DNA from: Phycisphaerae bacterium
GTDB lineage: Bacteria; Planctomycetota; Phycisphaerae; Sedimentisphaerales; Anaerobacaceae
DNA length: 49,389 bases
Assembly: GCA_012744475.1 (NCBI GenBank)
Contig: JAAYBV010000073.1
Location: 1-49,389 of the forward strand
Direction of reading: 5' to 3'
Part shown: piece after piece, positions 25,100 to 49,116 of the stretch
How positions within the stretch are numbered: the stretch's first letter is position 1
How the letters are laid out: the number at the start of each line of letters is the position of its first letter
Notes under the pieces: generated by a model
Seen by the model: only the letters and a program-made list of their open reading frames with translations
What the model was told of the DNA's origin: nothing
The model's database searches: none
Made by a program: the position numbers and the translations under genes

Positions 25100-25714
25100 A
25101 TGAGGAAGGCAGGCAGGGTTATGGTGAAGAGAGCGATTTTGGCAGTGGTCGTGGCGTCCATGTTGGTGGTGCCGGCATTTGCAGACATGAAGGTCAGAAT
25201 CCACAACGGCGTTGGGACCACCAGTGGTGGCGAATTTCGTGCTGAGGTGTTGGACAGCCCTATTGGCATCTACGACGCAGGTGATTTCATCAGCACTTTC
25301 TGCCTCGAACTCGTCGAGACCGTCTCGATTGACGGCGAGTACTGGGTAACTCTCAGCGACAGAGCGGTGCAGGGTGGGGTAGGCCCGGCGGGAGATCCGC
25401 TCGACGACCAGAGCAGGGTGATTTACAACTGCTGGCTGGATGAGCTGGAGCACACAAAGGGCAATGCGGACCTGGTCCAGAATGCCCTCTGGTATCAAGA
25501 AGGAGAAGGGGGATCATCGAACTATCTGAATAGCATCCCGGGCAGCGCCGCCGATGTCATGGTGATGAACCTGTGGACTGTGGCTGCGGGCGAGGGCTTC
25601 GCCCAAGACATGCTGGTTCGCGTCGCTCCGGTTCCCGTTCCTGGGGCGGTGTTGCTGGGTGTTCTGGGCCTGGGTGTGGCGAGCGCTCGGCTGCGAAGAC
25701 GCAGTTCGAAGTAA
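25100..25714 (+). CDS. Secreted exosortase substrate with thioester-domain-like motifs
   Basis: The product (204 aa) has a signal peptide (cleavage likely after VVPAFA, near 28), a compact middle domain and an exosortase-type tail: VPVPG at 178-182, a hydrophobic helix, and RLRRRSSK at the end. Cys68 in STFCLEL and Gln127 in LVQNALW match the Cys and Gln motifs ([YF]C-hydrophobic and Q-x-A-hydrophobic-W) of internal-thioester (TED/TQXA) adhesin domains. The match is by eye and a thioester is only inferred. AAAAGG lies eight bases before the ATG; an in-frame ATG seven codons later is less well placed. A promoter lies upstream and a terminator-like hairpin downstream, so it may be a single-gene unit. 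Confidence 0.88.
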   Translation: MRKAGRVMVKRAILAVVVASMLVVPAFADMKVRIHNGVGTTSGGEFRAEVLDSPIGIYDAGDFISTFCLELVETVSIDGEYWVTLSDRAVQGGVGPAGDPLDDQSRVIYNCWLDELEHTKGNADLVQNALWYQEGEGGSSNYLNSIPGSAADVMVMNLWTVAAGEGFAQDMLVRVAPVPVPGAVLLGVLGLGVASARLRRRSSK

Positions 25715-34398: not shown

Positions 34399-37098
34399 CT
34401 ACGTGCCTTGCGGGGCCGCCGAGGAACTCTGCTCCGACGGCGACAGGGTCGAATCCGCCGCGTCGAGACGCCGCGGCTCACGGCGCTGGCCCGGCAGGGC
34501 GGGATAACCTCGCCAGCCTTCGGTCAACCCCTGAACGATGTGGAGAATCAGGACATCGTTTGTCTGCGCATCCCAGTCGCGGCGGACCACGGCGGCCGGT
34601 CCGGCCGTCCGGGTCAACGGCGACAGGGCGCCCCACAGCGCGCTTCCGACGGCGGCGACGGAGATGCCGACCTCCGGCGCGACGCGCGGCGCGGGCCAGT
34701 TGGGCATCGCCGCCCGATCCAGCAGATGGCTCAGACGCTCGGCGTCCGGGCGGACACAGGCGGCCAGGTCGGCGACGGACAAAGAATCCACCCAGACCTT
34801 GACCACCTCGAGCGTGAACAGGACGCCGAGATCGGAACTGCGGGCCTGCGGGTCCTGGAGGTGCCGGACGACGCACTGCGCCCAGGCCTTCGGTTCCAGC
34901 GCCAGATCGCGCAGAGACTGTCCGATGCGCGATCGCAACGTCTGCCGGAAGGCCTCGGCCAACTGACGGTCCCAGTCCGCCGCCAGCAGGTCGAACAGCA
35001 CCTCGCGGCCCGGCGTCGCATCGGACATGCCTTGACGCAGAAGGGCCTGACGCGGGTCGAGGGTGAGCCGGTCGATCCACTGGACCATGGCGGTGACCTC
35101 GCGAATCAGATCGTTTTCGCGGGTCGGGATGCTGATGCCGCCGGCCAGCGGCTCGGGGACCTTGGGAATGCGTTCGATCAGCCGGACGCGACCGACGCGC
35201 GGTCTCAGGGCCAGCGCCGCCGCCACGCCAATCGCCACCAAGCCTGCCCCGTGGCAGCCCCATCGCAGTGAAGCATCGGTCCCGAGAGGGCTCGTCGCCC
35301 GCAGGCACAGAACCAGCCATGCCGACGCCAGGCACAACAGCCCGAACGCGCGCCACGTCCAGAACGGCGGACAAAGATGGTCGGGCGCCTCTTCGCACTT
35401 GGGCTGATCGGCGCGAACCTGAACCGGTCCGGTGAGGATCACGCTGACGCCGATGACCGCCAGCAGGGCGGCCACCCCGGATTGCAGGGCCGTGGCCACA
35501 GTCCACAGATCGGGCCAGAGCGACCACGCGACGGCGACCACGCCGCACCCCGCCAGCGCGATCGCCAGCGAGCGCATCCACAGCGGGGCACGCTTGCGGT
35601 AGGAAACGACGGGAGCCGCCTTGCCGACGTCGCATCCTTCCGGCACGACGGTCCTGCTGTGCGTGGTCCAGCCGGTGGGCTGAGTCGCCAGCACAGCCGC
35701 GGCCAGGCACAGCAGAGCCCCTCCGAGGGCGAAGACGCGTTCTTCAGAGAGCAACCCCGCCGCCAGACCGACAAAGCCCATGACCAGAAACAGCAGTCCG
35801 AATCGCCAGGCGGTCGTCCCAGCTGGGCGGCTCACGCTTGCTTGCGTCCGGGTCTGGCCGATCGGAGTGAAGCGGTCCACCCAAGCGTCTTCGGTCTTGC
35901 CGAGCCAGACTCGCATGGGTTGATACGTCTGTTCGTCCTGACGGCGAAGCACCTCGGCCGCACGGCTGCGGACTTGCTGGCGCTCGACGAGCTTCTGCCG
36001 CGTCAGCAGACATCGAAGCCGGGGTTCGGCACACTTGAGAAGATGGCTAAGGCTCGCCAGGGGCGCACGGCCGCAGATGCGTCCGACGGCGGCGCCGATC
36101 GCTTCGCAGGCATCCTTGTTACGCACCACCAACTCGTATGCGGCGGCATCCGGCTCATCGGCGTCGCTCGGGCGGGCCTGCGAGACGGCCTCGTAGATGC
36201 TCTCGATCCGTTCGACGAGCTTCTGCGCTTCTTCGTCGATATGTCGGCGACGCTCCTCGGCAAGGACCTCCTGGTACAGGCCGGCGAGGTCCTCGTGGAC
36301 CAGTCGTTGCGCCGTGCGGCGGATCACCTCCGGAAGGTTCAGGTGGATCGCGCGCAGGCCGAACGATCCGCAGACGTTCAAGACACTCTCCTGCGGCGTG
36401 ATGCGGCGTCTCTCGTTTTGCCGAAGGGGACCTCGGCAGGTCACCCCATGGTGAAGGAGAAACTGAGCGGCGAACTGGTCCATCTGCTCGGGCCGCTCGA
36501 ACCACATGCCGCCGGCGTCACGTCCGTCGAGCAGGTAGATCTTCTGGGCGAGCAGATCGTCCTGAAGGCGGGCCGTCAGGCGGGTCCAGGCTTCGAACCA
36601 GAGATCGTCGAGTTCGCGGCCGGACGCCGCGGTCCGGCCCGTCAGCGCGACGATCGCCATGTCGTGGGCCGGATCACCTGTCCGCAGCAGCTCCATCGCG
36701 GGCAAGGCCCGGTCGACCGAGCCGGCCTCCGACAGATCGATCAGGATGTACGAGCTCATGCGGACACGGCCCGGGAGGTTCGCATCCGCCGCCGGCTCCT
36801 TCGAGTGCAGCGTGCGAATCAGCGACGCGACGGTCGCCGACAGGGACTCTTCGGACAGGCCATTCGTCTGGCTGCAGGCCGGAATGTCGAAGTCGGAAAG
36901 CCAGGTCCAGTGGCCCGCCGCGACGCGCCGTCCCGCCGGGTCCATCGACAGAAAGGCGAACGGACCCTGTACGGGCACCGTCAGGCCCCTGGCCGTTTCG
37001 GCAAACGCGGCCACCGTCTGCTCGGCGCGACACCCGACGGCGACGAACAGAATCGGCGCCGGGCCGATTCCTTTCGCTTGTGTGTCATTTCCGCTCAC
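34399..37098 (-). CDS. Six-TM protein with degenerate tubulin-like N-terminal domain
   Basis: The product (899 aa) is the last gene of the tubulin-like/VWA operon, 37 bp after the tubulin-like gene. Its N-terminal 200 residues show the same order of strands and loops as its upstream neighbour (ILFVAVGCRAEQ 16-27, FLSMDP 49-54, ILIDLSEAGS 118-127, IVALTG 149-154), but the nucleotide-binding glycines are lost. A helical region follows (about 200-420). Six membrane segments in three pairs occupy about 425-650, and a cytoplasmic helical domain ends the protein. It starts with GTG. The relation to the tubulin fold is by eye. It may anchor the tubulin-like protein to the membrane. No enzymatic motif was found. 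Confidence 0.87.
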   Translation of the reverse strand: MSGNDTQAKGIGPAPILFVAVGCRAEQTVAAFAETARGLTVPVQGPFAFLSMDPAGRRVAAGHWTWLSDFDIPACSQTNGLSEESLSATVASLIRTLHSKEPAADANLPGRVRMSSYILIDLSEAGSVDRALPAMELLRTGDPAHDMAIVALTGRTAASGRELDDLWFEAWTRLTARLQDDLLAQKIYLLDGRDAGGMWFERPEQMDQFAAQFLLHHGVTCRGPLRQNERRRITPQESVLNVCGSFGLRAIHLNLPEVIRRTAQRLVHEDLAGLYQEVLAEERRRHIDEEAQKLVERIESIYEAVSQARPSDADEPDAAAYELVVRNKDACEAIGAAVGRICGRAPLASLSHLLKCAEPRLRCLLTRQKLVERQQVRSRAAEVLRRQDEQTYQPMRVWLGKTEDAWVDRFTPIGQTRTQASVSRPAGTTAWRFGLLFLVMGFVGLAAGLLSEERVFALGGALLCLAAAVLATQPTGWTTHSRTVVPEGCDVGKAAPVVSYRKRAPLWMRSLAIALAGCGVVAVAWSLWPDLWTVATALQSGVAALLAVIGVSVILTGPVQVRADQPKCEEAPDHLCPPFWTWRAFGLLCLASAWLVLCLRATSPLGTDASLRWGCHGAGLVAIGVAAALALRPRVGRVRLIERIPKVPEPLAGGISIPTRENDLIREVTAMVQWIDRLTLDPRQALLRQGMSDATPGREVLFDLLAADWDRQLAEAFRQTLRSRIGQSLRDLALEPKAWAQCVVRHLQDPQARSSDLGVLFTLEVVKVWVDSLSVADLAACVRPDAERLSHLLDRAAMPNWPAPRVAPEVGISVAAVGSALWGALSPLTRTAGPAAVVRRDWDAQTNDVLILHIVQGLTEGWRGYPALPGQRREPRRLDAADSTLSPSEQSSSAAPQGT

Positions 37099-37135
37099 GA
37101 ACGCTCACCAGCCTTCCATCAGCATCTCGGCTCGT

Positions 37136-40054
37136 TCAGAAGTTCATCACGTCGGCAACGTCCACCTCTTCCTTGAACCTCCTGAGGTCCTCGCGGCAGG
37201 CGCCGAGCACGTCCCTGGCGATCTTCTGCTCGCTTTGCGGGACCGTCTCGATGCACTGCTCGACCTGCTCGACTACGTGCTCCAGCAGCGCCAGACCCCT
37301 GCTCAAGCCTCCCTGCACCGCGTCGCAATCGGTCAAGGCGATCTCCTGGAGAATCAGATCGATCCGCGAGTTCGTGCCGCCCTGAAGCTCGGCCAGGTGA
37401 ATGGAAGTGGCCGGATCGCTCAGGGAGCGCAGTTGCTGCCGCAGCCGCTCGTTCACGGTCTCGGTCATCCGGCGGAAGGAGCCCACCTTGGCGGCGCCGG
37501 CCTCGTAAATCTGTCGTTCGAGCAGGTTGCCCTGCCGGCTCGACTGGTCCCGCCATTCGGCCAGGGCGCTCTGAAAGGCGGTGTACCAGTTCTTGTCCAG
37601 CCACAGGTCGGAGAACTCGAATCCCATCCGCCGGACGTATTCGTCGGTGGCCGCGACGTACTTGCTGTAGCGGCTGATTGCCTCCAGGCAGAAACCATAG
37701 CTCAGTCGCATGAGCTGGAGCCATTCGCCGGTGTGTTGATTGCAGGCCTCGGTGACGCCCGCCTCGCGAAGGCTGACCTCCATGTTGTGCGTCAGGAGCG
37801 TCGGCACGCAAGACCCGACGACCTGCTGGGCGACGGCCACCGACAGCGGCGAGGCGTACTTGCGCGACTTGTCCAGATCGATCTTCGGCTCGGCCAGGCG
37901 CCATATCTCGCAGATGCTCCGGTAGTAGGGATGGTCGTTGATCGACTGACTTGCCGACGGCCCGTTCCGGAACAGGTCCCAGCTATGGCGCTCGATGTCG
38001 TTCAGAAAGCGCTTCATGCCCTCTGACAGTCGGGCGAGTCCTTCGGCCAGCCGATCCTCCACGACGCGGACCTCCGCCAGTTCCGTTTTCGGCTCGCGGA
38101 TGGACAGGATACATGAGGTCAGGACGGGCTTGATCAGGCTCTGCCGGAAGTCTCTGGCGGCGACCGCGTCCAGCGCCTCCTCAGATTCCAGCGGCAGACA
38201 CAGCGGGGTCGAGAAGAAATCCGCCTCGCGGTCGCGTCCGGCCGGACGCGGTGAGGCGGTTCCCACGTCCGTCACGGCGTCACCGTTGCCGCCGGTCTTC
38301 TCGCCCAGCGACTTGCGCTGCCATGCCAGGGCAATGACCGCGTCGAGGGACTGCTTGCGGACCCGCAAAACGCGAGCGGTGGTCTTGAGCGATTCGGTCA
38401 GGTGTTCGTGGAGCAGCGCCTCGGCCATCGGCGGCCAGCAGGCGTCGATGGTCTTGTCGATCGCCGGCACCACGTCGCTCGACGTCCAGGACAAGGCCGG
38501 CACGCGGACCGCCAGCGTTTCCATCGCGCTGCGGGCCTGCGTGAGGATGTCCGCGACCACGGCATTGATGTTGGTCGGAGCGGATGTCTGCTTGTGAGCG
38601 AGCATCGCCTCGACCGCCTCGGTCCAGGCGTCCAGGCAGGCGCCGATCTGGTTGAGCGGCTGCAACGGCTCGGCGTTGAAGAAATCCTCTTCGATCATCT
38701 CGTCCACCGCCGCGAGCAGCGCTTCGATGGGCTTGTGCGGAGCGACAAGTTTCTCCGCCTCCTTTCGCGCCAGCGGAACGAGCGAGACCTCCAGGTGACG
38801 GCGGAGACTGGCGAGCACGCTGGAGACGACCTCCGGCGATGTCCCCTTGCCGGACGGCTCCCAGGGGAAAGAGATCGTCGGTGGGACAAGCTCTTTCGCC
38901 GAAGGGGCGAATCCGGCGCTGTTGGCGATTCGCTGCTGCACCTGTCGGCGATAGTGGGGCCGCCCGTTGTTCTGGCCGGCGTTGAGGTTCTCCAGGTCGG
39001 CCAGGACGCGCGACTGAATGTTGTGTGTTCGGTGTCCCGGCACGCCGCACCAGAAACCGTAGCTCGAAAAGCACTGCCGATGGTTGTTCACCGGGTCACG
39101 CTGCGGCAGAATCTCCGCCAGTTTGTTATTGGCGTCCGAGCGCACCTGCTGGCTCAGCGGCTCGACCGTCAGCGCCCGCAGCGCGCGAGCGATCAGCCGG
39201 ACCAGGTGCTTGCGGTCGCCGCTGCCCATGTCGACCTGGCCGTTGAGCAGGTAGAGGAAGTTGAACGGTCCCGTGTCCCGCCGGAAGCAGTCCTCTCCGC
39301 TGCGGTCCGTGCGGTAACGGACGCGGATGTCCGAACGCCGTTCGTCGCTGAGAAACTCGATCTGGTCCAGCGTTGCACACGCGGTCGCTTCGAGCTTCGG
39401 CCGCAGCATCGGGTCAATGCGAAAGGCATCGGGCAGCAGCAGGTGGCCGACGATCTCCGCCGGCTTCGGAAACGACTCCCGCGACCACCATCGCAGGTTG
39501 TACGCCATGTCGATGAGCATGCCGGCGCCGGTCCCGCCGCACACGCTGCTGGCGATGTGGACCACCGGCGCGCCGTCGGAGGCCAGAACGAAGGGGCCTC
39601 CGTTCTCGTCCAGAGGCTGTTGCGTGCTCGTGCGAAGGCTGCTGAACCGCGTGGCCGCCGCCTCGTGGATGATGCTCTCGCGCAGCTCGAAGAACACCAG
39701 CCGGCCGAGGCGCGGAATGCCCTGGCAGCCGTAATCGGCGAAGGTGGCGTCCTCGCGGAAGCCGCGCATCCAGTCCAGGTGCGGATGGAACTCCGGGAAG
39801 CTCGCGTTGTCCCGCACGACCTCGCCGACGTCGAGATAGTGAAACAGGTTGATGAAGTCCGACAGGATGCCCTCGGGCGGGCCGCCGTCGTCGGAGGCGT
39901 CGGTGTCGAGCTTCAGGAAGCGGATGAACGGCGGTACGGTGCCCAGCAGCTCGCGAATGTAGTGCTCGACCCACTGGCAGACGAGCACCCCGGTGCCCCC
40001 CAGACCGACGATCAACGTCGGGCGTACGATGATAGGACTGTCACTCAGTCGCAT
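37136..40054 (-). CDS. Tubulin-like (FtsZ/tubulin superfamily) protein
   Basis: The product (972 aa) has an N-terminal GTPase-type domain: PTLIVGLGGTGVLVCQWVE at about 13-31 as the first nucleotide loop, RFLKLDTDAS at 45-54, and VCGGTGAGMLIDMAYNLRW at 171-189, the counterpart of the GGGTGSG signature of FtsZ and tubulin. The remaining 700 residues are helical without membrane segments. This fits the Tubulin_2-type family, predicted to take part in membrane remodelling with VWA proteins. The ATG at 40054 has GAGG nine bases upstream; an earlier in-frame TTG at 40090 is less likely. It lies 49 bp after the VWA gene. Polymerisation or GTP hydrolysis is inferred from the motif, not shown. Confidence 0.9.
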   Translation of the reverse strand: MRLSDSPIIVRPTLIVGLGGTGVLVCQWVEHYIRELLGTVPPFIRFLKLDTDASDDGGPPEGILSDFINLFHYLDVGEVVRDNASFPEFHPHLDWMRGFREDATFADYGCQGIPRLGRLVFFELRESIIHEAAATRFSSLRTSTQQPLDENGGPFVLASDGAPVVHIASSVCGGTGAGMLIDMAYNLRWWSRESFPKPAEIVGHLLLPDAFRIDPMLRPKLEATACATLDQIEFLSDERRSDIRVRYRTDRSGEDCFRRDTGPFNFLYLLNGQVDMGSGDRKHLVRLIARALRALTVEPLSQQVRSDANNKLAEILPQRDPVNNHRQCFSSYGFWCGVPGHRTHNIQSRVLADLENLNAGQNNGRPHYRRQVQQRIANSAGFAPSAKELVPPTISFPWEPSGKGTSPEVVSSVLASLRRHLEVSLVPLARKEAEKLVAPHKPIEALLAAVDEMIEEDFFNAEPLQPLNQIGACLDAWTEAVEAMLAHKQTSAPTNINAVVADILTQARSAMETLAVRVPALSWTSSDVVPAIDKTIDACWPPMAEALLHEHLTESLKTTARVLRVRKQSLDAVIALAWQRKSLGEKTGGNGDAVTDVGTASPRPAGRDREADFFSTPLCLPLESEEALDAVAARDFRQSLIKPVLTSCILSIREPKTELAEVRVVEDRLAEGLARLSEGMKRFLNDIERHSWDLFRNGPSASQSINDHPYYRSICEIWRLAEPKIDLDKSRKYASPLSVAVAQQVVGSCVPTLLTHNMEVSLREAGVTEACNQHTGEWLQLMRLSYGFCLEAISRYSKYVAATDEYVRRMGFEFSDLWLDKNWYTAFQSALAEWRDQSSRQGNLLERQIYEAGAAKVGSFRRMTETVNERLRQQLRSLSDPATSIHLAELQGGTNSRIDLILQEIALTDCDAVQGGLSRGLALLEHVVEQVEQCIETVPQSEQKIARDVLGACREDLRRFKEEVDVADVMNF

Positions 40055-40103
40055 GGTCTGTTTCCTCGCGTCTTCTTCGGCGACTTTCAATTGTCATTGG
40101 CGT

Positions 40104-43100
40104 TCATACACCCATTTGTGACTCGACCGTCTCGACCGGGCTGGGCGGCTCACCGTTTCGGATTCGCACGCTGACCCGTATCGATCGGGCGGTTCCGTCC
40201 ATCTGATAGGGCAGGTCCAGGCTGATCGACGCGGCCTGTCCCGGATTCGGGATTGGGATCGCGCCGGTCTGGCCCGACCACACCCGGCCTCGCCTGGCCA
40301 ACGGCCCCGTCCAGACGCACAGCAGCCCTTTCTCCACGTGCCGGGCGCCGGCGCCGATTCGCGGCGTGATCAGCGCCCACGCCCACCGTCGCGGACAGAC
40401 CGCACGCCGGAGCACGACGCCCGCCGAGGCGATTACGGCAACCAGCGGCCCAAAGCCGGCGGCCTTCGACCGGCTCATCGCGTGCGCAACGTGCAGGTCG
40501 ATGTCGGTCCGCAGAGGCGTCTCCCGCAGGTCGATGACCACGGGGCTGTGGAACGATACAGGTTCGACGGTGGCGATATTCTCCGCGAGCCGGACATCCA
40601 GACCGAGCCGGCCGGGACGAGGAGCCAGCAGCTTCAGCACGAACACCGCCGCCAGCAGCACCGCCGCGCCCAGCAGCGCCCACCAGCACCACGGCGTGAC
40701 CTTGGGGGTCGCGATCGTCACGAACGTGACGTCGGTCCATTCGGAGATCTGCATCCCCTCGCCAGACCCCGGCATCGCATAGGTCGCGCAGCCGACGACG
40801 GCATATCGGTGCGTCGTCGCGGGTCTGGGCCAGCCCCAGAAGCCCCGATGGCCCAGTCGGGGGAGAATCCTCACCGCGGGTTCCGCCTTGCTGCCTTCCA
40901 CGCTGAACGCCTGGGTTGAGGGGCTTTTCGTTTTCAACTCCTGTATGAGCTGCGAAGACGGCGGCTGGCCGGGCGCATCGCGGTCGCGGGCCGGCCACAG
41001 GTAGACGGTCGTTGGGCCTTGGGACCACTGGCCCGTCAGTTCCGGCGCTGCGCGGAAGACGGGCCTGGCCCACAGCGCCGTCGAACCGTTGAAATCGATA
41101 CGCCCTGCGGCCGACTCGATCTCAGCGCCGGTCCGATTGCCCCGAAAGGCCAGCCGCTCCAGCACCGGCGGCAGAACGCGCACGTTCGGATGCTCCCAGC
41201 GAACCAGCTCCTGGCCCTGGGACGACAGTCGGAACTGCACGCTGCCGCTGGCGGGGTCCTCCAGCGGGGCCAGCAGCTCCGGGCTTTTCAACGAGAGCGG
41301 CACGGCCTCGTCGGCGCCCGATTCGATCGCGTGAACGCTTCCTTCCTGCCAGACGGGCCGGGCCGAGGGCAACTGGAATTCGAAGGCCATCGCGGCAACC
41401 TGCGGCGCGCCGGCGCTCTCCTTGTGGACAGTGACACGGTATTCGAACGGCCATTGCCGCACGCCGGGTGTGATCCACGCCGCCGGCGCCAGGACCGGGA
41501 CGACTTCGTGCGGCTGGATCGACAGCAGCACGGGCGTCGTCAGGCTGGCGACGATCTGGCCGGATTGCGGATCACGCCCGACCATCTCCACCGCATATTG
41601 ACCGTTGTCGCCAACCTGGGCCTCTCGCGTCAGCGAGCCGCCGGCGAGGTCGCCCTCCACGGAGAACGCGGTTGTCCATGGCGCCTCCGGCGTCGGACGT
41701 CGCAGCACGCGCAGCGACATGCCCGGCGGCGCCGTGGTCCAGTTGACCGGGCGCACGGCGATTTGCAGACGCGTGGAAAGCTGTGTCGTCACCGCCGACA
41801 AGCCGCCGGAACCGGTCGCCCAGATTTGCGAATCGAACAGAGAACTCTGACCGGACGATGTGAGACGCTGCACGCTTAGAGCCAGTCGAGGCTCCCTGAT
41901 CGCCAGATGGCCGGAGGCGCGTTCCGTTGCGGGTGCGGCCTGTTCCCTCGCAAACTCGATGCGCATCTCCACCGCCGCCCGTCCGATGTTGCGCGGAACG
42001 TACGGGGCGTATCCCTTCAGCTCGCATCGTGTGGCTCGGCCCTGGCGCGTGTCGCTGGGAGTCAGCGCCGTCCATTCGATCGAGTCGCTGACGTCCTGCA
42101 CGTCGCCGAAGGGCGACGTCACCGTCACGCGGCACGATGTCTTGACCTGATCGATCCGCTCGCTGTGTTGCGAGTTGCCTGCGATGTAACCGCCGAACAC
42201 GATGCGCAGCGGGATTCGGACCGGCTCCCATGTATGGCACGCCACGTCCCGGCCGGTTTCTTCTCCGATGCTCAGCTCCTCCAGCAGCAGGCGTCGGTCG
42301 CGCGCGTGGACCCGGCCGGCGTCGAGCTTGATCTCGACCGGCGTTGCCGCCGCAGGCGGCCTTGTGACCACGTACACGTGCGCCGGATACGTCTGTCCCG
42401 ATTGCAGGGGCTCGGGCAGAGTCTGCTCGAGCGACGCCTGACGCTCGCCCGCGGCAGGAGTCACGCTCAGACTCACGGGTCCGTCCGCGCCGGGACGCGT
42501 CAGCTCCAGACGAACCGACGAGATATCCTGGCCGGGCTGCCATTGGGTCGTGAGGCGAACCGGCTCGCCGCAGTAGAGGGTCTCCGCCAGGCCCTGGGCC
42601 GGCGCCTCACCGGGCGGCTGATAAAGGGCCCATCGCAGCAGGCCCGTCGCGATCGGGTCGACGACCGCATAGGTCTTCACGGCCCCCTGGAGGCCTTCGA
42701 TCGTCCCGTCGAGGCTGATCTCGCACCGGTCGGCGCGGGGCAACGGAACCTCGGATTCGAGAGCATACGTCGCCGCCAGCGTGCGTCCCTTGTAGCCGGT
42801 CGGCTTCGGCACGCCCACCAGGCGAACGCTGGGCGTCATCACCTGCGCCGTGTTACTGGTCAGGTCGACCGTTCGCAGTCGCACGCCGCTGAGCGTCTCG
42901 GGGAACATTTGTGCGACCCGCTCGCGGTCGGCGTCGAAGACCGGAAACGCCGAGACCGTCACCAACTGGCGGTGAAGCTCGCCCACCCATAGCGCCTCGC
43001 GCGGGTCGCTGAAGGTGCACTCGACTCGCACCGGCGCCGGTCCATAGGCCAGTTCGAAGCGGGGCAAGCGGAACGGCATGACACCGGCGGACGTCTCGAC

Positions 43101-44798
43101 CTGCGCCTCGGCCCAGCCGGAGACTTGCATCTCGCCTTCGGGCAGTTCCATCGGCCCGGCGAGGAGATTGTCCTGATCGTCCTTTTCAAACGTCCAGCTC
43201 GTCTGGGCAAGCGGCTCGACGTGGAGCGTCCCGGACAAGGGCTTTGCGCCCGAGGTCCCTTCAGGCGCCAGACGAAACGCCACCGACTGGCCTCCGTGCA
43301 GGTTGATGGACAAAGGCTCCGACAGATCGGACACCGAGCCGAGGACCTCGCCCGATGCCCCGACAGCGTTCAGACGAACGCAGGGCGGATGCACCAGCAC
43401 GTCGCTCGTCGCATCGGCCAGCGAGACGTCCGCATCGCCGATACGGTGGACCAGCTCGCCTCGAAACTCGTACAGACCGAAGGCCTCGATGGTGAAGGGA
43501 TCGCTCTCGTAGAGCCGCGAAGGGGCCGTCCACTGCCCGCCGTCCAGAGGCGACGGCTCGCTCTGACCCTGAGACGCGAAGGTCAGGCGGACCGACAGAG
43601 CGCCCGCCGGATCGCTCGTGCGGATGGAAGTCCCCTTGTGACGATCGACCACGTGCGCGGCGATCTGTCCCTGTTCATACACCCACCAGGGCGATGCGGG
43701 CCGAGGTTCCAGTTGCACGACGAAGTCGGGTATGCGATAGAGGCGCGCCCCGGCCGGCGGCGAGAGCGTCCAATATCCCTCCCAGGCTCGCTCCATCGCG
43801 TCGGGCCGGCGAAGAATCGTCGCCTGCCACTGGCTGCTGGTCACGCTGTTGCTGCGAATGCCCGCGTCCGCCTCCAGCCGTGCATCGAGGGCCCAGACGC
43901 GTGTCTGTGCGTCCGCTGCGTTTGCGGGCGGCGCGATGCTCAGAGCCGCCGGCGTGCGACCGACGATCACGGTCGCCCAGTCGTATCGGCTGATCGCGGC
44001 CTTTTCAGCCAGCGCCGCGCCCAGGCCGAAGACATCCAATAGAATGTCGGGCAGCCCCACCGTGCGCGTGATGCGATAGGCCTTGCCGCCGGTCAGCGAG
44101 GCCAGCGCCGCCATCATCTGCTCTGCCGTTCGTTCCGACGACGGCGTGTCGCCGACGCCGGCCCCGGTGCGATAGGACGCTCGGTTGACGATCACAGGGT
44201 ACACGCGAATGTCCTGCCGGGCGAGCCTCGTGGCCGCATTGAGCAGGGGGCCGCCGGTCCTGATGTCGCGCGCCGCATCGCGCGGATCGCCGCGACTGAG
44301 GAGGATGATCTTGCCCGGGCCGTTGCCGTGCTGCCGTCGTGCCGCCTGAATCCGCGCCAGCGCCCAGTCCAGGCCCTGATCGAGCTCGGCATAGAAGCTT
44401 CCAGTGAACGCCGGATCGCGCACCATATTGCGACAGGCGGCCTCGTTGAGGTAACTGCCGCCCCAGGCCAGCAGCGGCGCCGTTTCCTCGCTGGGCAGGC
44501 TGTACCGGACGCGGTCCGAGAAATGGCACACTCCGACGTGGAGGTTGGAGTAGAGGTATGGCAGGAACTGCATGGCGATCAGTTGCGCATCGGCGCGGAG
44601 CGTGACTCGCCGACCCCGACCGTCGTCGGCGGGGGTGTCTGCCCGGTCCATGCCACCCGAGACGTCGACGGCGATCACCACGTAGCAGGGCGGCGCGCCC
44701 GTCAGGACCGCGTCGGAGGTCTGTGCCGTTGCGGCGTCCCTCGCGAATGTGCCGACGAGCAGAGCGGCAACGAGAATGAACGAGATTCCTCTATACAT
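40104..44798 (-). CDS. Large secreted VWA-domain protein with C-terminal membrane anchor
   Basis: The product (1564 aa) has a signal peptide (SFILVAALLVGTFA, cleavage near residue 25) and a von Willebrand A domain at about 37-250. Its metal site reads Asp45-Val-Ser47-Gly-Gly49, so the third MIDAS residue is Gly rather than Ser. About 1100 residues of beta-sandwich-like modules follow. One membrane segment (WCWWALLGAAVLLAAVFVLK, about 1372-1391) precedes a cytoplasmic tail of about 170 residues. The bulk should lie outside the cytoplasm with the tail inside, where it could contact the tubulin-like protein. The gene lies 26 bp after the coiled-coil gene. The ligand is unknown. Confidence 0.88.
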   Translation of the reverse strand: MYRGISFILVAALLVGTFARDAATAQTSDAVLTGAPPCYVVIAVDVSGGMDRADTPADDGRGRRVTLRADAQLIAMQFLPYLYSNLHVGVCHFSDRVRYSLPSEETAPLLAWGGSYLNEAACRNMVRDPAFTGSFYAELDQGLDWALARIQAARRQHGNGPGKIILLSRGDPRDAARDIRTGGPLLNAATRLARQDIRVYPVIVNRASYRTGAGVGDTPSSERTAEQMMAALASLTGGKAYRITRTVGLPDILLDVFGLGAALAEKAAISRYDWATVIVGRTPAALSIAPPANAADAQTRVWALDARLEADAGIRSNSVTSSQWQATILRRPDAMERAWEGYWTLSPPAGARLYRIPDFVVQLEPRPASPWWVYEQGQIAAHVVDRHKGTSIRTSDPAGALSVRLTFASQGQSEPSPLDGGQWTAPSRLYESDPFTIEAFGLYEFRGELVHRIGDADVSLADATSDVLVHPPCVRLNAVGASGEVLGSVSDLSEPLSINLHGGQSVAFRLAPEGTSGAKPLSGTLHVEPLAQTSWTFEKDDQDNLLAGPMELPEGEMQVSGWAEAQVETSAGVMPFRLPRFELAYGPAPVRVECTFSDPREALWVGELHRQLVTVSAFPVFDADRERVAQMFPETLSGVRLRTVDLTSNTAQVMTPSVRLVGVPKPTGYKGRTLAATYALESEVPLPRADRCEISLDGTIEGLQGAVKTYAVVDPIATGLLRWALYQPPGEAPAQGLAETLYCGEPVRLTTQWQPGQDISSVRLELTRPGADGPVSLSVTPAAGERQASLEQTLPEPLQSGQTYPAHVYVVTRPPAAATPVEIKLDAGRVHARDRRLLLEELSIGEETGRDVACHTWEPVRIPLRIVFGGYIAGNSQHSERIDQVKTSCRVTVTSPFGDVQDVSDSIEWTALTPSDTRQGRATRCELKGYAPYVPRNIGRAAVEMRIEFAREQAAPATERASGHLAIREPRLALSVQRLTSSGQSSLFDSQIWATGSGGLSAVTTQLSTRLQIAVRPVNWTTAPPGMSLRVLRRPTPEAPWTTAFSVEGDLAGGSLTREAQVGDNGQYAVEMVGRDPQSGQIVASLTTPVLLSIQPHEVVPVLAPAAWITPGVRQWPFEYRVTVHKESAGAPQVAAMAFEFQLPSARPVWQEGSVHAIESGADEAVPLSLKSPELLAPLEDPASGSVQFRLSSQGQELVRWEHPNVRVLPPVLERLAFRGNRTGAEIESAAGRIDFNGSTALWARPVFRAAPELTGQWSQGPTTVYLWPARDRDAPGQPPSSQLIQELKTKSPSTQAFSVEGSKAEPAVRILPRLGHRGFWGWPRPATTHRYAVVGCATYAMPGSGEGMQISEWTDVTFVTIATPKVTPWCWWALLGAAVLLAAVFVLKLLAPRPGRLGLDVRLAENIATVEPVSFHSPVVIDLRETPLRTDIDLHVAHAMSRSKAAGFGPLVAVIASAGVVLRRAVCPRRWAWALITPRIGAGARHVEKGLLCVWTGPLARRGRVWSGQTGAIPIPNPGQAASISLDLPYQMDGTARSIRVSVRIRNGEPPSPVETVESQMGV

Positions 44799-44824
44799 AG
44801 CACTCCAGAGACGTCAAACGTCCC

Positions 44825-47539
44825 TCATATCTCCTGCCGGTCGGACGGCGCAGAGCCAAGCGGCGTCCTGATCGTCGCGATCCGGCCGATGATCTCCTGT
44901 TCTGTGATGCGGCGTACGGCGTCTTCGGCAAGGCCTTCGGCCCACGCGTCGAGGCCGTCGAGCACCTGCCGTTGCAGGGCCGGCGGATCCTGATCGTGGC
45001 GTCCGGCGAGGTAGAGGCACGCAGCGGCCCGCCGGACCTGATCGTTTGCGTCGAGTCCCATCCCCAGCGCCCAGCCGATGTGCTCCGACGCCTCCTGAAC
45101 CTTCGCAGGCTCTGAGTCGAGCAGCCTTTCGGCCATGGCCAGACAGCGCGTCTTCTCGCACGATTCGAGAAACAGCCGCACGGGATTGCGCGGGTCCGAT
45201 CGTCCCGCCAGACCCGAACCTCTGGCCGGCCAATGGTCCAGGCATCGTCCGGCGATGGCCGAAATGTCGGCGATCGCCTCTACCGGCGCATCGGCCAAAG
45301 CAGGCGTCAACGTGCTTCGCAGGCATTCCCACAGACGCGCAAATCGCCCGGGGTTTCCGTGCAGTTCGCGGAACGCCCGATTCACAAGCGAGCCGGCGCG
45401 GTTCAGCAGGTCGCGACGGTGGCTCTGGCCGCGCTGCTCAGAGCCTGCTGGTGGCGCCGGCAGCATGTGACGGGCCGCTGCCTCGAGAGCCGTCCGCATG
45501 TCGGTAGCCGCCCCCGACGCCGTCGCAGAGGGCCGCTCGCCCGTCAGGCCGAAGAACGGGGCGATCGTGTGCCAGGAGTCGGGACAGAGCGTCAGCACGT
45601 CCGCCAGAAGCGCCTCGACTCTCTCGGGCAGGGCCGGCTCGCTCGACCACTGGGCCAGCGCGGTTCGCAGCCGGAACTGCGCCTGATGCGCGTCGAGCTG
45701 GTCCCGCAGGCGGGACCAGTCTTCCACATGTCCGCTCGGATCGTTGAGATGGCACTGCGCCAGGGCCGCGTACGCCGAGTCGGGGACCGGGGCGGTCCAA
45801 TCGGCCGGCCATGTGCGGCGAAGCTGTCGCAGAGGCTCGCGGATTCTCTTTCGCACGTCCAGTCGCCTCAGGCGACCCAAGTGCCGCTCGGCTCGAAAGG
45901 AAAGCTCCTCCAGCAGACCGACAAACTCGGCGCCGGCCTGCGGTCCCAGCCGGGACTTGTGCTCGGCGAGCCGGTGTTTGAGGTCCTCGATCTGCCGTTC
46001 GGCGGCGGTGAGATTCGTGAGTTTGCAGACCCGCTCCAGTTCGCTGACGAGTCGCGCGCAAGTTCGCTGGAGCTGGAGCTGCCGGAAGTCCTTCTCGTCG
46101 TCTTTGATCCGGAGCAGCTCGGCCTCTACCTGCGCCAGCAGCTCGTCCCGACGGACCTGGTGGTCCACCGCGACGAGGATCTTGCGCTGCACCTCCAGAC
46201 GCGAGCGCGCCAGCTCGAAGCTGCCGGCGGCCACCAGACCCTCGATCTCGGCCAGCTCCTCCAGGGCGGACTGCTCGGCTCGCCGTCCGGGATGGTCCTG
46301 CGACAGGAGGGAGGAAGGAATCTGATTGCCCAACAGCAGTGTCGCCGCTTCGGCATAGCGATCGTGCGCGCACACGGGCAGGTCGTCACCCCAGAGCAGC
46401 AGTTCACACGACGCTTCGCGCGCCGGGGTCTGTTCGGCGGCCTGTGTCGGATCGAGTGACATCGCTTGCGCCGCCAGACGTGACGTCAGATGATTGAGAG
46501 ACCGCCAGGTTGGATCGCCGAGAATGGACGACTCCTCAGGTCCATGCATGGACGCACGGTCCGCGTGGGACGCCGCTCCCAGCCAGTGGCGCCTGGCCTC
46601 TTCGGGAAGTTGGAGGAAGTACTCGGTGAGTTGTCCATCGACGGCCTGCGTGAGGTTGTCCACCTCGATGGCCACGTTGATCACGTTGAGAAGATTGAAG
46701 CACGCGGCCGGAAGCCCCGTCACCGGAGCCGGCCTGCCGGAACTCGTGTCCGACGGGATCGCCGATTTCGCCAGGTCCTGCACGCCGTCCAATCGTCCCA
46801 GCCGGATGCACAGCGCGCCGCGATTGTTGTAGGCCAGAAGACGCAGGTGAGACTCCCGGCACCGCGCCTGGAGAAAGGCATCGTAGTAGCTTACGGCGGT
46901 CTCGAAACGCTCGCTCAGCTCGTTGAGCCAGGCGGCGCTCCACAGGAAGCGAGCACGAATGTTCGGCACGGCCCAATGCCATTGGCACAGCGACTCGACC
47001 CGCGTGCGAAGCGCGTCGATGCCCTCGGCGCGGACGCCCCGCCGGTACATCGACCGCAGCCGGACGAGCAGTTCGGCGGCCAGCGCCTCCAGACACGTTG
47101 AGCCGATCGCACGCTCCAGCGGCTGTTCCGTCGCGCCGTCAGAGCTCTTGGCCGGATCGTGTCGATCGAGCCGGCCATCGAAGACCATCTGCGCCAGAGA
47201 GATCGGCATCACCTTGGCGTCATGATTGTCGATACGGACTCTCAGCATAGAACTCTCGTCCACTCGAGACTCAAACGCTCGGATTCCTACGCTCTTCTCC
47301 ACCCCATCCGTGGCGCCGCGTCGCACGTGTCTCGGCGCAACACGCGACGATCGTCTCGGCTTCCCGGCGGCAGTTCCAGGCAAGCGTCCCGACGAGCGCG
47401 CCCGATCTCCCCGGGGAGATCGCTGCTCGGCGCGCACGATATTATGCCCGACCGGACGCTCTTTGTCCAATGGCAATTCTCCGGATGCAGACCTCGGCGT
47501 CGGTTCATCGGACCTCGGATCGGCCGGATCGCCGCTCAT
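44825..47539 (-). CDS. Large coiled-coil/helical cytoplasmic protein, function unknown
   Basis: The product (904 aa from the ATG at 47539) has no signal peptide or membrane segment. A TPR-like helical pair is seen near 200-265 (LNELSERFETAVSYYDAFLQ). A long charged coiled coil follows at about 425-530 (including ARSRLEVQRKILVAVDHQVR), then helical repeats to the end. The first 97 residues are rich in Pro, Arg and Ser; an in-frame ATG at 47248 starts a more ordered region (MLRVRIDNHDAKVMPISLAQ) and could be the true start, but it would leave a 387-bp gap. Being second in the operon, it is probably a structural partner of the VWA and tubulin-like proteins. The family was not recognised. Confidence 0.82.
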   Translation of the reverse strand: MSGDPADPRSDEPTPRSASGELPLDKERPVGHNIVRAEQRSPRGDRARSSGRLPGTAAGKPRRSSRVAPRHVRRGATDGVEKSVGIRAFESRVDESSMLRVRIDNHDAKVMPISLAQMVFDGRLDRHDPAKSSDGATEQPLERAIGSTCLEALAAELLVRLRSMYRRGVRAEGIDALRTRVESLCQWHWAVPNIRARFLWSAAWLNELSERFETAVSYYDAFLQARCRESHLRLLAYNNRGALCIRLGRLDGVQDLAKSAIPSDTSSGRPAPVTGLPAACFNLLNVINVAIEVDNLTQAVDGQLTEYFLQLPEEARRHWLGAASHADRASMHGPEESSILGDPTWRSLNHLTSRLAAQAMSLDPTQAAEQTPAREASCELLLWGDDLPVCAHDRYAEAATLLLGNQIPSSLLSQDHPGRRAEQSALEELAEIEGLVAAGSFELARSRLEVQRKILVAVDHQVRRDELLAQVEAELLRIKDDEKDFRQLQLQRTCARLVSELERVCKLTNLTAAERQIEDLKHRLAEHKSRLGPQAGAEFVGLLEELSFRAERHLGRLRRLDVRKRIREPLRQLRRTWPADWTAPVPDSAYAALAQCHLNDPSGHVEDWSRLRDQLDAHQAQFRLRTALAQWSSEPALPERVEALLADVLTLCPDSWHTIAPFFGLTGERPSATASGAATDMRTALEAAARHMLPAPPAGSEQRGQSHRRDLLNRAGSLVNRAFRELHGNPGRFARLWECLRSTLTPALADAPVEAIADISAIAGRCLDHWPARGSGLAGRSDPRNPVRLFLESCEKTRCLAMAERLLDSEPAKVQEASEHIGWALGMGLDANDQVRRAAACLYLAGRHDQDPPALQRQVLDGLDAWAEGLAEDAVRRITEQEIIGRIATIRTPLGSAPSDRQEI

Positions 47540-47552
47540 GTGAACGTAGGGA

Positions 47553-47564
47553 ATTTCGCGAAAT
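47553..47564. promoter_or_regulatory. Perfect 12-bp palindrome upstream of the coiled-coil gene
   Basis: ATTTCGCGAAAT lies 13 bases before the ATG at 47539 on the - strand. It could be an operator, but a short palindrome of this size can arise by chance. Confidence 0.25.
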
Positions 47565-47635
47565 GGAAATCTGTGAAGAACGAGGAGTGATCTGCGACCG
47601 AAGCCGATCGATGGATGGCGCCTCGAGAGTGGCTG

Positions 47636-47950
47636 CTATGCGTGGTTGGCTACCAGCAGAATCCCGTCGCAGATTCCCTTGAGCCAGTTGACTTCCTCCG
47701 ACTCGCCGACGAGGGGACCGCCGTTGTGGAAGAGCATCGAGTCCCACAGGGTATCGGGCAGCTGGAAATCTTTCGTCAACGTCGTCACGGTGTTCATGGC
47801 CGAAAAGAGCGCCACAAGCACCTTGGTCTCCGCCGGCAGCTTCTCATATGTCACGCGTATGAAACGTTCGACGTTGCTGCCGCTCTGCCGGTCAGACGTA
47901 TCCTTGTCGTGTGATGGCCCCGTCATTCCCTCGGGGGTAGACCCGTCCAT
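47636..47950 (-). CDS. Small protein opening the tubulin-like/VWA operon
   Basis: The product (104 aa) is soluble, with a polar N-terminus (about 30 residues rich in Ser, Asp, Gly) and a helical core: VERFIRVTYEKLPAETKVLV near 34-53 and LFSAMNTVTTLTKDFQLP near 56-73, ending in GICDGILLVANHA. No family was recognised. The ATG at 47950 has AAAGGACGATCT upstream, a good ribosome site. The frame is open to 48145 but the extra residues are Arg-rich and start before the predicted transcription start. It is followed after 96 bp by the 904-residue gene on the same strand. Confidence 0.75.
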   Translation of the reverse strand: MDGSTPEGMTGPSHDKDTSDRQSGSNVERFIRVTYEKLPAETKVLVALFSAMNTVTTLTKDFQLPDTLWDSMLFHNGGPLVGESEEVNWLKGICDGILLVANHA

Positions 47951-48717: not shown

Positions 48718-49116
48718 CTACGCGGGAGCCTTCTCCGTGAGCCATTGCTCTTTGATGTGTTGGATGACGTCCTTGCGGCTGATGATGCCGACCAGCCGAC
48801 CGTGGTTGAGGATGGGAACGCGCCGGAAGTGGCTGGCTGCCAATCCGTCCGCGACGGTCCCAATCTCCGTCTCCTGGTCGAACGCCACCACCGCCCTGGT
48901 CATGTAGTCCTCGACCTTCCCGGGCCGGTCTTCCACCTCATAGAGCAGCTTCAGGACGTCCTTCTCCGTGACCACGCCCACCAGCATCCGATCCTTGTCG
49001 ATGACAGGCAGGCCCGTCACGTTGTTCTCCACCATCATCCGGATCGCCCGATAGATGTCCGCGTCCTTGGATACGGCCACGACCTCGGTCGTCATGATGT
49101 CCTTTGCCTTGAGCAT
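48718..49116 (-). CDS. CBS-pair protein (first of tandem pair)
   Basis: The product (132 aa) is another bare CBS pair: KAKDIMTTEVVAVSKDADIY opens CBS1, with VTGLPVIDKDRMLVGVVTEK. CBS2 starts VEDYMTRAVVAFDQE and has FRRVPILNHGRLVGIISRKD. It parallels the downstream CBS protein along its whole length, so the two arose by tandem duplication. GGGAGG lies eight bases before the ATG. Such proteins regulate a partner through nucleotide binding; the partner is not identified here. Confidence 0.93.
   Translation of the reverse strand: MLKAKDIMTTEVVAVSKDADIYRAIRMMVENNVTGLPVIDKDRMLVGVVTEKDVLKLLYEVEDRPGKVEDYMTRAVVAFDQETEIGTVADGLAASHFRRVPILNHGRLVGIISRKDVIQHIKEQWLTEKAPA

Follow-up and report, generated by a model that had tools for sequence, protein, structure and literature searches.

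Operons that combine FtsZl1 with VWA proteins were predicted, from gene context only, to form a membrane-remodelling system, and the reported range of FtsZl1 proteins extends from archaea to Planctomycetota (PMC2875224). As described there, an OmpA protein, a P-loop GTPase and a kinase are frequent or present in several genomes, though not obligatory partners, and the membrane attachment and polymerisation of FtsZl1 were left open in 2010. As far as covered here, the text of that paper, supplementary families A1-A2 and B1-B9 aside, does not describe these operons as encoding a second protein of tubulin type, and a search of the open-access literature with limited terms returned no description of a pseudo-tubulin partner of FtsZl1.

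Here we analysed a window of 49,389 nucleotides (the whole stretch of DNA studied) from a Phycisphaerae bacterium. The original prediction described five genes on one strand separated by 26-96 bp, and our check of the open reading frames (ORFs) confirmed all of them: they form one operon-like run on the minus strand (47950-34399), with intergenic gaps of 96, 26, 49 and 37 bp from 5' to 3'. The genes, in that order, are the following:

47636..47950, minus strand: small protein, accessory, 104 aa from a downstream ATG; homologue at the same position in 2/8 relatives
44825..47539, minus strand: helical protein P0004, 904 aa; homologue in 6/8 relatives
40104..44798, minus strand: putative diverged VWA-type protein P0003, 1564 aa; hydrophobic segments at the N-terminus and at 1367, plus a C-terminal tail
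37136..40054, minus strand: FtsZl1-type (Tubulin_2) protein P0002, 972 aa; PF13809 E 4.4e-35; GLGGTG and CGGTGAG intact
34399..37098, minus strand: predicted six-TM pseudo-tubulin P0001, 899 aa; candidate tubulin-type domain at about 14-242, then a helical region, six TM helices (within 428-631) and a C-terminal domain

Judged by its sequence, the operon is an FtsZl1/VWA system, with a VWA-type gene 49 bp upstream of P0002. The order of the four large genes, whose conservation had been proposed as a check, is common to all nine relatives up to where each contig ends, and the two genes downstream of the operon were found in none of eight relatives. The idea of a five-gene unit held in part: the four large genes are conserved, whereas the small gene has homologues at the matching position only in L013 and L020, among eight relatives searched. 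The core of the system is the four large genes, with the small gene outside it. An alternative 169-aa frame exists for the small protein, and similarity to the relatives begins at residue 62 of that frame. Scans for promoter-like sites (3 found, 1.1 expected) and terminator-like sites (6 found, 7.4 expected) were uninformative.

Conservation of the helical protein P0004 begins near residue 96-98, so its true start may be further downstream; Pfam gives it no match below E 0.3. The contigs of the two relatives without a P0004 homologue begin within the VWA gene. Profile comparison gave a weak match (P 0.005) between P0004 and a TPR-like protein at the equivalent position in two other planctomycete genomes (G123 and G586), with P 0.27-0.64 for four unrelated control pairings. 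Comparison of P0004 with P0001 (P 0.094) and with P0002 (P 0.14) gave only weak signals.

The 972-residue protein P0002, originally predicted to belong to the tubulin superfamily, does match Tubulin_2 (PF13809; E 4.4e-35, 122 bits against a curated cut-off of 27), and its loops GLGGTG and CGGTGAG are identical in all eight aligned sequences. We confidently assign P0002 to the FtsZl1 family, its fold being assigned from the Pfam match. Since it keeps both glycine loops, we take P0002 as the nucleotide-binding subunit, and it would be expected to bind nucleotide. The length of 972 aa counts from a conserved ATG; with a start at the TTG at 40090, the protein would have 984 aa. The AlphaFold model (mean pLDDT 35.3) is too poor to judge the fold, and its C-terminal region is helical, but with pLDDT mostly below 50. 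Among solved structures there was no convincing sequence relative (the best was a short match to FtsB, E 0.11). The core had been likened to the FtsZl1/VWA system of Makarova and Koonin, and the Tubulin_2 protein with its VWA-type neighbour bears this out. Pfam searches of the five window proteins, with E up to 1, likewise found no OmpA, kinase or P-loop GTPase domains, in agreement with the reported absence of an OmpA-family protein and a separate GTPase.

P0003 had been described as a secreted VWA protein. Its VWA-type character and N-terminal hydrophobic segment stand, but the call is weaker than was implied: P0003 has no Pfam match, VWA_2 was found in one of seven homologues and only at E 0.014, and the NCBIfam VWA match is sub-threshold (E 0.0014, 18.2 bits against a cut-off of 81.25). 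The VWA family profile, searched against PDB, found no solved-structure relative. The protein carries a DVSG motif, and in profile comparison its residues 163-273 match a VWA protein from a different family (P 5.6e-5), which Pfam confirms (VWA_2, 8.5e-14); the ten-column match at the motif itself has P 6.1e-4 (0/100 shuffles). At residue 5 of the metal motif the window protein has Gly, and the relatives have Ser, Gly or Asn. The motif and the profile matches point to a diverged VWA-type protein. The N-terminal signal peptide was judged by hydrophobicity alone and, given a second hydrophobic stretch near 1445 besides the segment at 1367, the C-terminal tail may lie on either side of the membrane.

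P0001 had been regarded as a six-TM anchor that could not be placed. The six segments are upheld, since the hydrophobic segments counted coincide with six helices in the AlphaFold model, and these, with the hydrophobic segments of P0003, fit the membrane-bound layout first suggested; the N-terminal domain, in turn, is predicted to be a degenerate tubulin-type domain. Its strands and helices alternate tubulin-fashion in the model, which is of modest quality (mean pLDDT 65.7, pTM 0.38, 8 related sequences only). The top two PDB matches in Foldseek are TubZ (E 1.7e-3 and 2.0e-3), in a search where all matches stay short of E 0.001, with PatB acetyltransferase, Ras/Rab GTPases and other folds ranking close behind. 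Model residues 14-242 align with gamma-tubulin over 184 residues at 3.6 A (VIA Z 13.1); the C-terminal strands added in some VIA rows have pLDDT 42-66.

When the N-terminus of P0001 was compared by profile with 21 FtsZl1 N-domains, P was 5.1e-4 and the score 36.0, reached by none of 200 column shuffles (maximum 24.9), and 19 comparison slices from the proteins of this operon and of the G123/G586 operon scored 12.0-26.7 against FtsZl1. P0001 and FtsZl1 match best over the strand and helix that come after T4 (KIYLLDGRDAGGMWFERPEQMDQFAAQF vs FLYLLNGQVDMGSGDRKHLVRLIARAL). Pfam alone detected nothing in P0001, and hhalign of the full-length family alignments of P0001 and P0002 reached only P 0.065. 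In the alignment of eight sequences, the T1 place of P0001 has sequences such as VAVGCRAE or VGVGPCAE, and the T4 place has DLS. GGTG is absent from the T4 place in 8/8 sequences and the GTP-binding glycine loops are not kept, which is why we name P0001 a pseudo-tubulin. The model and the profile match suggest both a degenerate tubulin-type fold and homology for its N-terminus (about 14-242).

Tubulin_2 matched in 22/392 genomes, 19 of them above cut-off and one being the window's own genome; FtsZl1 regions were compared in 19 of the other 21 genomes and in G201, with G192 and G256 (below cut-off) left out. The gene after FtsZl1 in G123 and G586 matches the FtsZl1 profile (P 2.5e-4, 0/200 shuffles), as does that in G075 (P 1.5e-14), for which Pfam also reports Tubulin_2 (E 2.3e-12). 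Going by these profile matches, downstream FtsZl1-like partners are also found in these three other planctomycete genomes. P0001 did not match the partners directly (P 0.075 for G123/G586, P 0.25 for G075), so the connection is only via FtsZl1, and BLASTP of G123 proteins against P0004 or P0001 returned nothing significant. The three Thermaceae partners (P 0.17) and the G031 partner (P 0.048) fail the FtsZl1 profile test, and had a mixed outcome against combined profiles. Nine surveyed loci are kinase-FtsZl1 fusions, and G146 (below cut-off) has no such operon. Inspected by eye, G571 has a different downstream gene, G177 no candidate up to the contig end, and G150 another gene order, while G034 and G530 are short or ambiguous. 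The Azospirillum neighbour P0018 has no Pfam match. A pseudo-tubulin after every FtsZl1 gene was rejected as a general rule, the positives being the window, G123, G586 and G075 only.

The Thermaceae loci bear on a role in phage defence, in which FtsZl1/VWA modules would be parts of defence islands. In 3/3 Thermaceae plasmid records, brxL comes after genes for a vWA, a tubulin-like and a hypothetical protein, in one record with a transposase gene in between, and one record has an HmaC match nearby. However, with a threshold of E 0.001 PADLOC recognised none of the five window proteins (up to E 1 its one match is LmuB, 0.74) and gave no match for the three Thermus triad proteins, and the tested flank of the operon in the window consists of exosortase and sugar genes. 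P0002 is present in 7/80 genomes searched, window's genome included. It occurs in 6/6 searched genomes of the window's genus, which vertical inheritance fits better than a mobile system. We thus consider a defence role very unlikely.

FtsZ was searched in the window's genome and 14 controls: PF00091 and PF12327 (FtsZ, FtsZ_C) had no match in the window's whole genome and matched 13/14 control genomes in each search. The host apparently has no FtsZ, the usual division tubulin, and canonical FtsZ is consequently absent from the operon too. An operon substituting for FtsZ in cell division would suit such a planctomycete; however, with P0002 restricted to 7/80 genomes and P0001 to 2/248 genomes of the class, most relatives must divide without it, and we regard this role as highly improbable.

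The reading we favour, tentatively and with a likelihood a little short of even, is that the four large genes code for a single FtsZl1-type complex containing two subunits of the tubulin superfamily, in which the pseudo-tubulin P0001 anchors the GTP-binding P0002, and which is coupled to the VWA protein. P0002 would bind GTP in the cytoplasm, where both ends of P0001 would sit given its six helices, and would dock onto P0001 via a tubulin-type interface. P0001 would act as membrane anchor and as template or cap for a P0002 oligomer, in the role that gamma-tubulin has for a microtubule, or would form the immobile half of a heterodimer, and P0004 could be a cytoplasmic adaptor. P0003 would span the same membrane, its tail touching the assembly in the cytoplasm and the part outside binding a ligand or surface partner, perhaps via metal; GTP binding would thereby be linked across the membrane to cell-surface events. 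Docking, polymerisation, complex formation and the effect on membrane or surface are what we infer for this complex. A broader proposal, which we find doubtful, is that some FtsZl1 systems pair a GTP-binding subunit with a catalytically dead partner, in this lineage an integral-membrane nucleator or cap that would tie the tubulin polymer to the membrane and, via the VWA protein, to the surface of the cell. A planctomycete lacking FtsZ would then have no tubulin-type proteins but these two.

The original prediction went on to a trans-envelope, membrane-remodelling machine. Remodelling or vesicle formation, in which a tubulin-like filament would bend the inner membrane with the six-TM protein as anchor, follows the prediction made for FtsZl1/VWA operons. 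The core genes and membrane proteins are as in the FtsZl1/VWA operons (PMC2875224), and a membrane-bound second tubulin would suit such a machine. However, gene context is its sole basis, filaments are conjecture, the authors did not confidently locate the T6-H7 elements in FtsZl1, and a reviewer of that paper proposed transport or signalling instead (PMC2875224); we hold remodelling to be unlikely. Experiments on Tubulin_2 proteins were found, with limited terms in the open-access literature, only in a Synechocystis study (PMC9880817), which points to a surface or pilus-linked module for motility and adhesion, with the tubulin-like protein organising or signalling to the apparatus and the VWA protein outside. 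Phototaxis was impaired when sll0445 (Tubulin_2), sll0446 or sll0447 was interrupted, and the sll0445-sll0447 proteins were predicted by co-fractionation to be in complexes with pilus assembly proteins (PMC9880817). However, photosystem II fluorescence was altered in the same mutants, which leaves room for an indirect effect. Such a module seems to us improbable here.

A membrane-embedded pseudo-tubulin beside an active one would, if true, give a testable answer to how FtsZl1 reaches the membrane and whether it polymerises, and would be an example of a tubulin-type domain become an integral membrane subunit. The tubulin-like protein, the membrane pseudo-tubulin and the surface protein may together constitute a membrane-tethered cytoskeletal machine.

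Compared with known systems, P0002 has the Tubulin_2 domain and the phylum in common with the kinase-FtsZl1 fusions of Planctomycetota; unlike P0002, these have a fused protein kinase (Pfam in 2/9, the rest by eye), and by eye no VWA gene was recognised beside the nine loci. In BtubA/B and gamma-tubulin, GTP is bound by each partner, and neither is known to be an integral protein of the membrane. Cooperation between two unlike tubulin-superfamily subunits is the logic of those systems and the one proposed here; P0001, in contrast, lacks the glycine loops and is predicted to be membrane-embedded. In Synechocystis, as here, a Tubulin_2 protein is encoded inside a gene cluster (sll0445-sll0447), whose neighbours are described as having FtsA and DivIC domains (PMC9880817). 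With the FtsZl1/VWA operons, as described in PMC2875224, our locus shares a glycine-loop FtsZl1, an adjoining VWA gene, large membrane-associated proteins and the phylum Planctomycetota, and it differs from them in the putative six-TM pseudo-tubulin directly after FtsZl1. The FtsZl1/VWA system was already known; what this locus adds is a predicted six-TM pseudo-tubulin beside FtsZl1.

The five minus-strand open reading frames of the original prediction were confirmed, with gaps of 96, 26, 49 and 37 bp between them. P0002, proposed as a member of the tubulin superfamily, matched Tubulin_2 in Pfam (E 4.4e-35), and P0001, proposed as a six-TM protein, does have six hydrophobic segments. The small protein, P0001, P0003 and the helical P0004 gave no credible Pfam match (0/4). 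P0003 has three hydrophobic segments; its putative VWA assignment comes not from Pfam but from a motif and from comparing profiles with a VWA protein that belongs to a different family. Beside the operon, the window holds:

109-34366, plus strand: glycosyltransferases, asparagine synthase, exosortase (PF09721, E 1.5e-62), a large Ig/beta-helix protein and UDP-glucose dehydrogenase

These genes suggest a region for exopolysaccharide and exosortase functions.

Genome contigs were scanned for P0002 relatives, giving eight loci (67-85% identity over the best segment), and the neighbouring genes were sought there by tblastn (matches above 60 bits reported). The conserved neighbourhood expected from the original prediction was found: the four large genes keep their order at the relatives' loci as far as the contigs reach. 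The VWA gene lies 5' of the tubulin gene in 8/8 loci; the six-TM gene lies 3' of it in seven (the L019 contig stops within the tubulin gene), and six have the helical gene (the L015 and L016 contigs begin within the VWA gene). The small gene was detected at two of the eight, and the window neighbours of the six-TM gene, UDP-glucose dehydrogenase and a 1532-aa protein, at none; the window ORF at 25100-25714 had a 27% identical match in L017. In a ninth relative (L039, genome G201) all four genes are present as well, with the stretch ending inside the helical gene. Since identity to the window in alignments is higher for the tubulin protein (68-86%) than for the six-TM (42-68%), VWA (44-65%) and helical (46-61%) proteins, constraint is strongest on the tubulin subunit. 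By eye, a CBS-domain pair-type gene lies 5' of the small gene (window 48718-49116), with a similar one upstream in L020 (774-1214), and an ABC transporter ATPase-type gene lies directly 3' of the six-TM gene in L018 (15712-16713; gap 34 bp) and L017 (15858-16862).

The AlphaFold model of P0001, built from eight sequences, had a mean pLDDT of 65.7 and a pTM of 0.38 (other models, pLDDT 45.7-59.7). Strands and helices alternate in its N-terminal domain, where 10-residue blocks over residues 11-220 average a pLDDT of about 74 (range 40-90). No Foldseek match passed E 0.001; the top two were TubZ (E 1.7e-3 and 2.0e-3), followed by acetyltransferase and P-loop folds from E 0.018. When the model was compared by VIA-align with 988 chains from Foldseek, the best match was a chain of the gamma-tubulin ring complex (Z 13.1 over 184 residues, 3.6 A), then a microtubule chain (13.0), OdinTubulin (12.8), CetZ (12.4) and FtsZ (12.2). 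Among the 50 entries listed, 49 are by title (of entries, not chains) FtsZ, TubZ, PhuZ, CetZ, tubulin or microtubule/axoneme assemblies, the exception being an egg cytoplasmic lattice. Some alignments reach as far as residues 801-874 of the model, a stretch that would form a second, tubulin-like domain, but the pLDDT there is 42-66 over 811-860.

An FtsZl1 profile was made from 21 N-domains (Planctomycetota, Thermaceae, Deinococcus, Azospirillum and one cyanobacterium). The P0001 N-terminus matched it at P 5.1e-4, against 0.14-0.42 for six controls (three other protein stretches and three reversed sets); enlarging the profile by one sequence gave 1.4e-4, against 0.081-0.68 for the same controls. 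Its score of 36.0 was reached by 0/200 column shuffles (highest 24.9). When 21 protein slices were scored, the N-terminal slice of the six-TM protein reached 36.1 and that of its counterpart in genomes G123 and G586 reached 38.0, and the remaining 19 scored 12.0-26.7, the top one being the second slice of that counterpart. The aligned part lies after T4 (FLYLLNG in the window's FtsZl1, KIYLLDG in P0001).

The window's genome (99.62% complete, 118 contigs) gave no match to PF00091 or FtsZ_C (PF12327); each was matched in 13 of 14 control genomes. Tubulin_2 occurs there at one place only, so no tubulin-type protein other than P0001 and P0002 was detected in this genome. P0002 is present in 7/80 genomes, namely all six of the window's genus (its own included) and one other of the same family; P0001 was found in two of 248 genomes of the class, and Tubulin_2 in 22 of 392 of the phylum at E 0.001, with 19 above the cut-off. 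The operon thus has a narrow distribution and is stable within the genus, whereas the family to which it belongs is broader and patchy. Of the P0002-bearing genomes, five are seemingly the same assemblies as loci among the eight, so the two sets are not additive. In three genomes of the window's order (G146, G192 and G256; loci L010, L011 and L052), Tubulin_2 matches stay below the cut-off (E 1.2e-4 to 2.3e-4); the open frames concerned are 445-460 aa long.

Some other FtsZl1 operons also have downstream partners. G123 and G586 carry a TPR-like gene, a VWA gene, FtsZl1 and then a protein that has one or two hydrophobic segments, in the same order as the window; the match of this last protein to the FtsZl1 profile spans almost the entire tubulin domain (P 2.5e-4, then 2.6e-5; 0/200 shuffles). 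In genome G075 (L032, 9451-15058) two Tubulin_2 proteins stand in tandem, the gene after FtsZl1 matching at E 2.3e-12 with an altered GTP loop (ADPLASG in place of GGTG); a VWA gene before the pair was not recognised by eye. Direct comparison of the three kinds of partner was not significant (P 0.075, 0.25 and 0.035). The corresponding genes of genome G031 (P 0.048; 7/200 shuffles reach the score) and of three Thermaceae plasmids (P 0.17; 17/200) did not pass against the profile. A pseudo-tubulin partner is thus supported for the window's lineage, for G123/G586 and for G075, three settings that do not establish it as a general feature.

The Thermaceae plasmids (L040 7329-15288, L041 6907-15999, L058 6321-14398) carry vWA, tubulin-like and hypothetical genes, then brxL, with a transposase gene before brxL in L041 and HmaC and PDC-S01 matches upstream in L058; the module looks to sit in a defence island. 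In Azospirillum and Cylindrospermopsis, FtsZl1 genes have proteins of solute-binding or transporter type nearby (L054 5298-6587, L055 11608-16927), as a reviewer of Makarova and Koonin's 2010 paper observed in Polaromonas (PMC2875224).

That paper defines FtsZl1, its VWA neighbours and the membrane-remodelling hypothesis, and a reviewer there favoured transport or signalling (PMC2875224). Later work sets Tubulin_2 apart as a divergent group (PMC9871819). The sole Tubulin_2 experiment we found in the literature comes from Synechocystis: when sll0445, the Tubulin_2 gene, or its neighbours were interrupted, phototaxis was impaired and the fluorescence of photosystem II changed (PMC9880817). For the window, we propose that a heterotypic tubulin assembly would be docked at the membrane and coupled to an extracytoplasmic VWA protein; P0001 and P0002 would touch each other and may polymerise, and any cellular use of the pair is likewise inferred. 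The new element is the pairing of an intact subunit with a degenerate one, the degenerate one being in the membrane.
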